Source: Nitrospirota bacterium
Lineage (GTDB): Bacteria > Nitrospirota > Thermodesulfovibrionia > Thermodesulfovibrionales > Dissulfurispiraceae
Direction: 5' to 3'
Length of the DNA stretch: 64,000 bases
Assembly: GCA_009773415.1 (NCBI GenBank)
Contig: WSNO01000003.1
Coordinates: 1 to 64,000, forward strand
Below the pieces are notes generated by a model that was not told the origin of the DNA, ran no database searches, and worked only from the letters and a program-made list of their open reading frames with translations. Positions 12,260-15,751 of the stretch are shown here, piece after piece. How positions within the stretch are numbered: the stretch's first letter is position 1; the number at the start of each line of letters is the position of its first letter. Made by a program: the position numbers and the translations under genes.

Positions 12260-13450
12260 ATGAGGAAGACGGTATTTGTATTGACCATGCTTCTTGGACG
12301 GGCGTTCATCTCATCGGTTGCTTTTGCATCAGAAGCCGGCAAGGTGAATGCAACGCTTAAGAACCCCGAATATATAGGCTCTCAAACCTGCATAAAATGT
12401 CACAAGACGGAACATGAGAGCTGGAAGCTCACATATCACAGCAAGTTGATAGGCATCAAGGACGAGCGGATGTTGAAGGATGCTGTGGAAAAGGGGGAAA
12501 CCGACGGCTTTAATCCCGGACCTGCGAAAGGCAACGCAACAGGCAAGAAGTTCGCCCGGCAGGATGTGCAGTACACCATCGGATCAAAGTGGAAACAGCG
12601 CTATCTGGTGAAAAACGAAGATACCGGAGGGTATCAGTTCCTCGACAAACAGTTCAACCGCATGAGCGGAAAATGGGAAGGCTACGGCCAGAAGCACGAC
12701 TGGAATACTCAGTGTGCCACCTGCCATACCACCGGCTACCGAATTCTTGAGTACGATGCAAAGAACCCGAAGGCCCAGAAAACGACTTTCAGCGAGACGA
12801 GCATTGGCTGTGAAGCATGCCATGGTCCGGGTGCGGCGCATGTGAAAGGCCCCAAGAAGGGAAGTATCTTTACTTTTGCCGGCAAGACACCGCAAGAGCA
12901 GTCCAGAGTGTGCGGTTACTGCCACATCCGGCTTGACAATGAGCAGTACAAGACGGCTCAGGGCGGTACGCGCGAAGACTTTCCGGCACCGAAAGTGGGC
13001 GACAGCTTCAAGCCGTCAGATGACTGGACCACGTGGTATCCTGAGCATGTGATCATACCCGGCGTTCAGGCCAACAATCCTTTTGATAAGCAGTACGTAG
13101 GCGACCTGAAGGGTCTGTTTATTGTTGATGATGTATCAAAGAAAAACGGCGTCTATGAAGAGGCGAAGCACCACCAGGAGTATCAGGGTTTTATTCAGTC
13201 CGCTCATTACAAGGCGGCCGGAATGAGCTGCCTGTCCTGCCATACAGTGCATGCCTCCAAGAAGAAACCGATGATGGAGGCTGCAAAGAGCTGCGCCGGT
13301 TGTCACGACGCATCGTATACAATTGACAAGTACATGCCGGGTACGGGCAGGACTGCCGACAACCTGTTTGTGCGTTCGCATACCTTCATCAAGAATCAGG
13401 AAAGGAAAGGACTGCCGACAGCAACCGGGGTCCCGGTCTTTTACAAATAG
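12260..13450 (+). CDS. exported hexaheme c-type cytochrome
   Basis: Periplasmic electron-transfer protein of the cytochrome c554-like type. 396 residues with a signal peptide (cleavage likely after AFAS, near 24). Six CxxCH heme sites are at residues about 44 (CIKCH), 152 (CATCH), 184 (CEACH), 218 (CGYCH), 324 (CLSCH) and 345 (CAGCH). Spacing is wide between the first two and between the fourth and fifth. GGAG precedes the chosen ATG by about 10 nt; an earlier ATG at 12253 is in another frame. The partner is unknown, but the DsrE/F/H-like genes follow 95 bp later on the same strand. Confidence 0.9.
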   Translation: MRKTVFVLTMLLGRAFISSVAFASEAGKVNATLKNPEYIGSQTCIKCHKTEHESWKLTYHSKLIGIKDERMLKDAVEKGETDGFNPGPAKGNATGKKFARQDVQYTIGSKWKQRYLVKNEDTGGYQFLDKQFNRMSGKWEGYGQKHDWNTQCATCHTTGYRILEYDAKNPKAQKTTFSETSIGCEACHGPGAAHVKGPKKGSIFTFAGKTPQEQSRVCGYCHIRLDNEQYKTAQGGTREDFPAPKVGDSFKPSDDWTTWYPEHVIIPGVQANNPFDKQYVGDLKGLFIVDDVSKKNGVYEEAKHHQEYQGFIQSAHYKAAGMSCLSCHTVHASKKKPMMEAAKSCAGCHDASYTIDKYMPGTGRTADNLFVRSHTFIKNQERKGLPTATGVPVFYK

Positions 13451-13545: not shown

Positions 13546-13890
13546 ATGCAGAGGGAACTCATATTTTTTCTTACCACCACGCCATACAGCTTTGAAAACA
13601 CCCACACCATCATCAAACTCGCCGATGCCGCTCTGACGAAGGGTTGTCCTGTGCGCATGATTGCGTCGGGCGACGGGGTCTTTTCTATTGTCAAGGGGCA
13701 GGTGCCGCAATCGCTGGCGGCCCTTGAAGGCTTGGTCGAACGAGGCCTCAAGGTAGACATATGAACCGGCTGCATGCAAAGCCGCGGTCTGGCGGCTGAG
13801 GATGCTGTCGGAGGAGGGGAACTCAGCTCCCTCAGTGGGCTTTTCAATGTCATGAAATCCGATCCGATTTTTCTGAATATCGGCATATAG
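13546..13890 (+). CDS. DsrE-like selenoprotein (UGA at codon 73 read as selenocysteine)
   Basis: The frame opens at an ATG with AAGGAG 7 nt upstream. It runs 72 codons to TGA at 13762-13764, then continues in frame for 41 sense codons to a TAG at 13888-13890. Read through, the product has 114 residues, typical for a DsrE/TusD-like subunit. N-terminal: ELIFFLTTTPYSFENTHTIIKLADAA. C-terminal: KVDI-U-TGCMQSRGL, ending FLNIGI. The U falls where DsrE-family proteins have their active cysteine, and it makes a U-x-x-C redox motif with Cys76. A SECIS-like hairpin follows (13780-13797). The next gene starts 10 bp after the TAG with its own AGGAGG, so the intact frame, not the truncated one, matches the gene spacing. 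DsrE-like selenoproteins are an established family; this assignment is by inspection. Confidence 0.82.
13780..13797 (+). promoter_or_regulatory. bacterial SECIS-like hairpin
   Basis: Stem AGCCGC pairs perfectly with GCGGCT around the loop GGTCTG. It starts 15 nt after the UGA codon inside the coding frame. In E. coli fdhF the SelB-binding apical loop is GGUCU, so the critical loop bases are the same here, and the distance from UGA to loop (21 nt versus about 18 in fdhF) is within the known range. Expected role: SelB recruitment for selenocysteine insertion. Confidence 0.72.
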
Positions 13891-13899
13891 GAGGCTGGA

Positions 13900-14253
13900 A
13901 TGAATTCATTATGTGTCGTTCTGAGAAAGCCTCCGTATGGTTCAGTTGATGCTGCGGAGGCGGTTCGCCATGCTCTCGGCGGCCTCACGGAAGATGTTGA
14001 GGTAAAACTGCTTCTGGTTGACGGCGGCGTCAATGTGGCACGAAAGGGGCAGGATACAGCCGGCACCGCGTATGCCAGCGTGGAAGAGGGCATCAGGGAT
14101 TGTATCGGCATGGGGGCGGAAGTTTTCGCTGATGCGCTGTCACTGAAGGTGCAAGTGCTTTCACCAGACGATGTCATGGACGGGGTGAAGATTGTTGACT
14201 CGCTCACAATCTCTGCAATCATCAGGAAATCCTCTCAGGTCATGATCTTTTAG
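13900..14253 (+). CDS. DsrF/TusC-like sulfur-relay protein
   Basis: 117 residues, DsrE-superfamily fold. It starts with a short strand and VVLRKPPYGSVDAAEAVRHALG, followed by VEVKLLLVDGGVNVARKGQ, a pattern seen in the DsrF/TusC subunit. AGGAGG lies before the ATG. It is the middle gene of a three-gene set in DsrE-F-H order. In TusBCD and DsrEFH such subunits form a heterohexamer that relays persulfide sulfur; the active cysteine normally lies in the E/D subunit, here replaced by Sec. No dsrAB is visible in the window. Confidence 0.75.
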   Translation: MNSLCVVLRKPPYGSVDAAEAVRHALGGLTEDVEVKLLLVDGGVNVARKGQDTAGTAYASVEEGIRDCIGMGAEVFADALSLKVQVLSPDDVMDGVKIVDSLTISAIIRKSSQVMIF

Positions 14254-14563: not shown

Positions 14564-15751
14564 ATGAAGACCGAGAATCAGACCAACCGGATCGAACAGC
14601 CGATTTATCTAGACTACAACGCCACCACCCCGCATGCTCCGGAAGTCATTGCCGCCATGCGTTCATTTCTTGAGGAACATTTCGGCAATCCGTCAAGTGC
14701 CTATTCGTATGGATTTCGGGCGCGCTCGGCTGTGCAGAGCGCCCGTGAACAAGTGGCAGTAGCACTCAACTGCCAAGCGGATGAAATTCATTTTACCGGT
14801 TGCGCGACGGAATCGAACAACTGGGCTCTGAAGGGTATCGCATATGCCCGAAAGAACCGCGGGAATCATATCATCACCTCACAGGTGGAGCATCCGGCGG
14901 TGATCGAGGTCTGCAGGTATCTGGAGCGGAACGGTTTTGCGGTAACCTATGTACCAGTAGACGAATATGGCATGGTAGCTGCTGCCGACATTGCAGCTGC
15001 GATAACTCCGCAGACGATATTGATTTCTGTCATGCACGCCAACAATGAGGTAGGTACGATTCAGCCGGTGGAGGAGATTGCTGTTATTGCGAGGGGCCGC
15101 GGGATTGTTTTTCACAGCGACGGCGCACAGGCGGTCGGCAAGATTCCGTCAGACATGCAGAAGCTTGGAGTCGACCTTTACACGATTGCCGGGCATAAAC
15201 TCTATGCGCCAAAAGGAGTCGGAGCCCTGTATGTCCGAAAGGGAATCACCTTTGAAAGGCTCCTGCATGGTGCGGGGCAGGAGATGGGAAAGCGTGCCGG
15301 AACCGAGAATGTTCTCCATATCGTCGGCATCGGTACCGCCTGCGACATTTCTGCCCGCGACCTTGAAGTGAGCATGGCACACCTGAAGGCTACGTCCGAT
15401 AGACTTTTTGCCGGACTCTCCGGTTTGCTGGACGGAGTGCTCCTGAACGGTCATCCCGATCGGAAACTGCCGAATACGGTCAGTGTGAGCTTTTCCGGAA
15501 TTGATGCCAATGCACTCCTGTCCGAATTGCGTGATGAAGTCGCGGCTTCAGCCGGAGCCGCATGCCACTCCGGCGGCCGCGCCGTATCTTCAGTCCTGAA
15601 GGCGATGAAAATACCTGAAAATCGCGCCTTTAGCACCGTCCGCTTCTCAACGGGAAGCCCAACCACATTGGATGTCGTCGACCGCGCCGTTGCCCTGATC
15701 ACATCTGCTGTAAAACGCCAGCGAGGGAGTTCACCGATGTCCTGCCGGTGA
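14564..15751 (+). CDS. cysteine desulfurase / selenocysteine-lyase-like enzyme
   Basis: PLP enzyme of the NifS class that mobilises sulfur (or selenium) as a persulfide or selenide. 395 residues. N-terminal IYLDYNATTPHAPEV, PLP lysine K212 in AGHKLYAPKG, and catalytic Cys334 in SAGAACHSGGRAVSSVL. The GAACHS context is closer to selenocysteine lyases than to IscS (CTSAS) or SufS. ATG at 14564 has GGAG 6 nt upstream; a TTG 12 nt earlier is less likely. It directly follows the DsrE(Sec)-F-H set, so a role in feeding S or Se to that relay is plausible but inferred. Confidence 0.9.
   Translation: MKTENQTNRIEQPIYLDYNATTPHAPEVIAAMRSFLEEHFGNPSSAYSYGFRARSAVQSAREQVAVALNCQADEIHFTGCATESNNWALKGIAYARKNRGNHIITSQVEHPAVIEVCRYLERNGFAVTYVPVDEYGMVAAADIAAAITPQTILISVMHANNEVGTIQPVEEIAVIARGRGIVFHSDGAQAVGKIPSDMQKLGVDLYTIAGHKLYAPKGVGALYVRKGITFERLLHGAGQEMGKRAGTENVLHIVGIGTACDISARDLEVSMAHLKATSDRLFAGLSGLLDGVLLNGHPDRKLPNTVSVSFSGIDANALLSELRDEVAASAGAACHSGGRAVSSVLKAMKIPENRAFSTVRFSTGSPTTLDVVDRAVALITSAVKRQRGSSPMSCR

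Follow-up and report, generated by a model that had tools for sequence, protein, structure and literature searches.

Does the dsrE-like reading frame at positions 13546-13890, cut by an in-frame UGA, encode a selenoprotein and, if so, in what kind of system would its selenocysteine (Sec) work? The window analysed here is a stretch of 64,000 nucleotides of contig WSNO01000003.1, part of a Nitrospirota genome of 2.46 Mb (hereafter the own genome). A reading of the bare sequence had proposed that the frame remains open on both sides of UGA 13762-13764 and yields a DsrE-like protein of normal length. The features on which the argument rests are the following.

13546..13890, + strand: dsrE-like gene, UGA read through; predicted 114-aa selenoprotein, PF02635
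13762..13764, + strand: in-frame UGA, codon 73 (Sec73); TGA in 99/103 strong homologues, TGC/TGT in the other 4
13766..13811, + strand: possible longer stem around the hairpin, from the minimum free energy (MFE) structure of the UGA plus 51 nt of this sequence alone
13771..13773, + strand: Cys76, second residue of UxxC, invariant in the 22-row alignment A1
13780..13797, + strand: SECIS-like hairpin; 6-bp stem AGCCGC/GCGGCU, loop GGUCUG (13786-13791), 15 nt after the UGA
13889..13894, + strand: AGGAGG, ribosome site of the gene that starts at ATG 13900; overlaps the true TAG

The frame contains a single in-frame TGA, within the motif U-T-G-C, and its true stop is TAG 13888-13890, where the ribosome site of the next gene lies as the sequence-only reading had described. 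Read through, the 114 residues match the DsrE family (PF02635) with 43 bits (cut-off 22.7) over residues 6-104, so that the domain spans the TGA; homologues likewise match on both sides of it. Standard rules produce the expected truncated product, an ORF of 72 aa that ends just before the active residue.

A scan of named genomes returned 66 relatives, titled Nitrospirota, subgroups of Nitrospirota or uncultured bacteria, the close relatives of the own genome being labelled Thermodesulfovibrionales or Nitrospirae. TGA occupies the Sec73 codon in all 66 loci fetched. A second search, with a profile against 396 Nitrospirota genomes, was concordant: an in-frame TGA occurs once in 99 of 103 strong matches (counted from the result table) and is missing from the other 4. 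These four orthologues, all from one family, read C-G-T-C at the motif, with TGC or TGT standing precisely where the others have the Sec codon. The UGA gene is present in about a quarter of the sampled Nitrospirota genomes; a search of a plasmid collection found no relative. The homologues do not stop at residue 72, their frame continuing past it, and the TGA recurs in so many independent assemblies that a sequence error is excluded. Nonsynonymous differences are few in codons 88-113 (pN 0.14, with a synonymous pS of 0.75), which indicates that the region behind the UGA is translated and under selection. Seven genomes hold two Sec-DsrE copies each (G004, G020, G052, G105, G142, G276 and G278), those of G004 falling in the two different clades (A and B) of the family. 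At locus L165, which lies at a contig end (G013:C12), the contig breaks right after the UGA and the visible residues are 74-114.

The predicted hairpin had been likened to that of fdhF, and the loop region of E. coli fdhF does have the same GGUCUG core. The region of 51 nt from the UGA has a folding energy of -29.1 kcal/mol (z -4.85; none of 200 shuffles was as stable). Across the window, however, 9 of 110 open-frame TGAs precede a hairpin of 5-6 bp whose first two loop positions contain G; a hairpin after such a TGA is therefore common and alone weak evidence, and homologues were examined. The codons of the hairpin are among those with the lowest synonymous entropy in a ranking over four- and six-fold codons in both clades. 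R80 is CGC in 67/67 sequences, A83 is GCG in 65/67, and G81 is GGU in 21/21 members of clade A, whereas glycine codons elsewhere in the gene are variable. The value of pS, which is 0.79 upstream of the UGA and 0.75 over codons 88-113, falls to 0.38 in codons 74-87. Within the stem 90% of cells are paired, with 46 double changes, values that 500 shuffles and all slid registers failed to match. Since the double changes largely reflect the split between clade A (rich in C-G) and clade B (rich in U-A), they represent few independent events, and we gave more weight to the freezing of codons and to the Cys orthologues. All four of the latter have AAA or AAG in place of GCG at codon 83, which prevents the hairpin stem from forming. 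Judged from these sequences, this is a natural control: predicted Sec occurs with the hairpin and Cys without it. An Rfam scan of the region at an open threshold gave no meaningful family; the arguments for a SECIS element are thus the covariation, the frozen codons and the loss of the hairpin in the Cys orthologues.

The four genes of selenocysteine synthesis and insertion that were searched for are all present in the own genome: selA (614 bits), selB (345 bits), a tRNA-Sec (selC) with anticodon UCA, and selD (333 bits), which is also interrupted by an in-frame TGA. This selD is found at 2478-3404 of L132 (own genome C59:96000-104000), and the gene adjoining it, at about 3.5-4.5 kb in L132, has an N-terminal sequence similar to that of LysR-type regulators, a family of which has been described as selenium-linked (PMC5322559). 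With selA in 37 of 40 relatives, its co-occurrence with the UGA gene is not discriminating; in the three relatives without selA the UGA gene is missing as well. Two genomes with the UGA gene but no selA, G070 and G115, are merely 77% and 74% complete. Three of the four genomes with a Cys orthologue have selA, so the Cys form is not simply tied to the absence of selA. Many genomes with selA have no member of the Sec-DsrE family.

Together, the homologues, the frozen hairpin codons and the stem covariation leave the selenoprotein reading well supported overall. That UGA 73 would be decoded as Sec by SelB and tRNA-Sec, directed by the downstream hairpin, is very strongly supported by these comparisons, and the orthologues show that Cys can take the place of Sec at residue 73.

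The claim that the UGA stands at the active-cysteine position of the family, in U-x-x-C, also agrees with more distant relatives. In a small alignment, Cys78 of E. coli TusD (NICVAAALRRG; 23% identity) aligns with Sec73; TusD has no CxxC at this site. The sole sequence match in a family-profile search of the PDB, E. coli YchN (1JX7, E 2.5e-6), aligns its LCKTC with U-x-x-C, Sec73 facing the first Cys of the YchN CxxC. YchN is a Cys protein, and its PDB entry contains a single type of chain. In the AlphaFold model (mean pLDDT 77.7) residue 73 ends the strand 69-73, and all the best fold matches belong to the DsrE family, among them Allochromatium vinosum DsrE (2hy5_A; TM 0.82, rmsd 2.0) and E. 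coli TusD (2d1p_A). By alignment and model, then, Sec73 occupies the place of the sulfur-binding cysteine of TusD and DsrE, at the end of the central strand. In a tree of 115 columns, TusD and the Cys-type DsrE of the own genome both sit on long branches and their placement is unsupported.

The gene is followed by three others on the same strand.

13900..14253, + strand: DsrF/TusC-like subunit, 117 aa; PF02635, 40.6 bits
14259..14543, + strand: DsrH/TusB-like subunit, 94 aa; PF04077, 40 bits (cut-off 24.4)
14564..15751, + strand: NifS/IscS-like cysteine desulfurase; TIGR03402, 461.6 bits (below the cut-off of 530.75)

The sequence-only reading had seen here a complete DsrE-F-H set with a desulfurase, and the first part of that claim has held. 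Downstream of Sec-DsrE, a DsrF-like gene is found in 66/66 loci and a DsrH-like gene in 65/66, L112 being the sole locus without a DsrH match in the locus search. The desulfurase fared differently: a NifS-like gene beside the triad occurs here and at one other locus of the 66 (L064, 58% identity), and is a local neighbour, not a conserved partner. On the gene order across loci, the conserved unit is a putatively Sec-containing DsrEFH-like triad. Both small subunits fall under the curated cut-offs (TIGR03010, 28.8 bits against 94.15 for TusC; TIGR03011, 46.5 bits against 49.2 for TusB), so the set is not of the canonical TusBCD/DsrEFH type I. Cys68 of the DsrF-like subunit is kept in 59/67 sequences, and the 66 DsrH-like sequences show no conserved Cys near the place of Cys20, a residue with a described role in A. 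vinosum DsrH (PMC13047784).

The usual partners of the triad suggest sulfur oxidation or trafficking. In 51 loci an SQR-like flavoprotein (Pyr_redox_2) lies near it on the same strand, its best NCBIfam match being NF049943 with 99.5 bits, below the cut-off; in 43 loci there is an MMPL transporter, also on the same strand, with a LolA-like protein. ArsR-type regulators and DsrE2-like proteins are further same-strand neighbours, and YedE-type (Sulf_transp) sulfur transporters occur near the triad in some relatives, with rhodanese also among the neighbours. In the window neither tusA nor yeeE/yedE stands beside the triad. A multihaem c-type cytochrome gene (12260-13450) lies directly upstream of it in the window; the neighbourhoods of the triad in the 66 other loci contained no such gene. 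The window further contains, at 2151-2267, an ALIL pseudoknot (RF01497, 86.7 bits), a typical element of programmed frameshifting in the IS3 family.

The own genome also holds dsrA, a second Dsr match adjoining it where dsrB would be expected, a DsrC protein near dsrA, and four TusA domains. A small ORF after dsrB was considered as dsrD and rejected, being identified by neither Pfam nor NCBIfam. On the dsrA contig, about 19 kb from dsrA, lies a separate Cys-type set DsrH-DsrE-DsrF-TusA (L130:3045-4411, own genome C26), which makes the Sec set a second relay. A full-length YedF (L131:6397-6993; TIGR03527, 178.7 bits) is encoded on contig C60, that of the window, about 93 kb from the triad. YedF is a selenium-linked fusion of TusA and DsrE.

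Taking sequence, fold and linkage into account, we consider it probable that the gene encodes a Sec-containing DsrE/TusD-like subunit of a DsrEFH-type three-subunit sulfur carrier of Nitrospirota. Sec73 would take up sulfane sulfur as a selenopersulfide, the donor being for example TusA, a desulfurase or the product of SQR; Cys76 or an incoming thiol would release the sulfur to the next, DsrC-like carrier, and the F and H subunits would serve as scaffold and docking surface. Uptake and hand-on of sulfur by Sec73 are inferred from work on TusD, DsrE and Cys67 of the type II proteins. Selenium being both the better nucleophile and the better leaving group, Sec could make the transfer faster than Cys would, and more readily reversible. 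We advance only tentatively the stronger proposal that the triad is a dedicated selenium-dependent relay, in which Sec73 would be an obligate selenopersulfide carrier of sulfur, or the triad a carrier of selenium towards SelD, a selenoprotein then contributing to its own supply of selenium.

The alternative that survives best, though we think it unlikely, is that the protein is a thiol/selenol redox protein of DsrE fold, in which a selenenylsulfide cycle of UxxC would reduce persulfides, polysulfides or disulfides outside any DsrEFH relay. UxxC is a classic redox motif and, TusD having no CxxC at this site, could mean dithiol redox chemistry; Cys76 is invariant, the Cys orthologues keep CGTC, and CGxC is carried by YedF-type DsrE domains (PMC5322559). 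The known DsrE-like UxxC selenoproteins, moreover, have been classed as thiol oxidoreductase homologues (PMC1088965, PMC1794560). The strict linkage to DsrF- and DsrH-like genes nevertheless points to a multi-subunit carrier, and Sec sits at the known sulfur-binding position of TusD.

Considerably less probable is a self-supporting selenium supply, in which selane selenium, supplied by a desulfurase or selenocysteine lyase, would be passed by the triad towards SelD. In its favour is a Sec-containing selD (in-frame TGA, CAGU motif) within about 5 kb of the triad in 6/66 loci (L099, L106, L107, L050, L058 and L111), to which may be added the NifS-like gene adjoining the triad in the window and the YedE-type transporters near several loci, YedE, YedF and Sec lyase being known selenium-linked genes (PMC5322559). 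Three of the six loci, however, are close relatives, selD is absent near the triad in the other 60, the genes most often found nearby are of the SQR-like, ArsR and MMPL kinds, and the family is missing from the many selA genomes mentioned above. Finally, that the UGA is a real stop, leaving the 72-aa DsrE fragment of standard gene calling and a remainder that decays or forms a separate frame, is refuted by the comparative data, namely the purifying selection after the UGA and the TGA or Cys kept by every strong homologue, and we give it almost no credence.

The reading as a sulfur-carrier subunit sets the gene beside several known systems. DsrE-like UxxC selenoproteins were reported in 2005, 2006 and 2008 (Zhang and others; PMC1088965, PMC1794560, PMC2398784) and are listed without function in reviews of 2022 and 2026 (PMC9312934, PMC13188914). 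They share with the present protein PF02635, UxxC and a bacterial SECIS element downstream, but were described as isolated genes, from marine metagenomes and Desulfovibrio vulgaris, whereas here the gene heads a triad of Nitrospirota; the D. vulgaris member (WP_014524487.1) was compared with it by description alone. With DsrEFH type I of A. vinosum (2HY5) and TusBCD of E. coli (2D1P) the triad has in common the E-F-H order, the fold and the place of the active residue. It differs from them in having Sec for Cys, in its UxxC motif and low identity to TusD, and in F and H subunits that score below the curated cut-offs, the latter lacking an equivalent of Cys20.

A further likeness may be sought in DsrEFH type II and its YTD cluster (PMC13293266, PMC13047784): both are divergent DsrEFH sets of organisms with dsrAB, with sulfur transporters and sulfurtransferases nearby and a DsrH without Cys20. 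Type II is reported to sit beside tusA and yeeE (PMC13293266, PMC13047784), its published HMM criterion is a match of more than 80 bits, and Cys67 of its DsrE is the essential sulfur-transfer residue in vitro (PMC13293266), the role that would fall here to Sec73. The Cys-type DsrH-DsrE-DsrF-TusA set of the own genome may be the DsrEFH type II of that 2026 survey.

A full-text search for selenoprotein together with DsrEFH found no paper among open papers, most subscription journals lying outside its scope, and Sec in a whole DsrEFH set appears to be unreported in the open papers searched. What is new here is the Sec-containing DsrEFH triad, its spread in Nitrospirota, and a Sec/Cys pair with matching presence and loss of the hairpin.

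DsrEFH serves as a marker for sulfur oxidation, and the 2026 survey infers from it the sulfur-oxidising capacity of sulfate reducers (PMC13293266). Because standard gene calling cuts the Sec version before the active residue, surveys of predicted proteins should miss Sec-DsrE; none of the NCBIfam models caught it. In the same survey 99.3% of the sets have the active Cys, and neither selenocysteine nor selenium is mentioned (PMC13293266), which suggests that UGA-cut genes were mostly left out. If the Sec reading is true, the UGA-cut gene is likely to be an overlooked but recognisable part of Nitrospirota sulfur metabolism. DsrE-like selenoproteins, known since 2005 but without an assigned function, would then be placed in a genomic context and be given an activity open to testing; what selenium adds to sulfur transfer is the question posed by the naturally occurring Sec and Cys forms.
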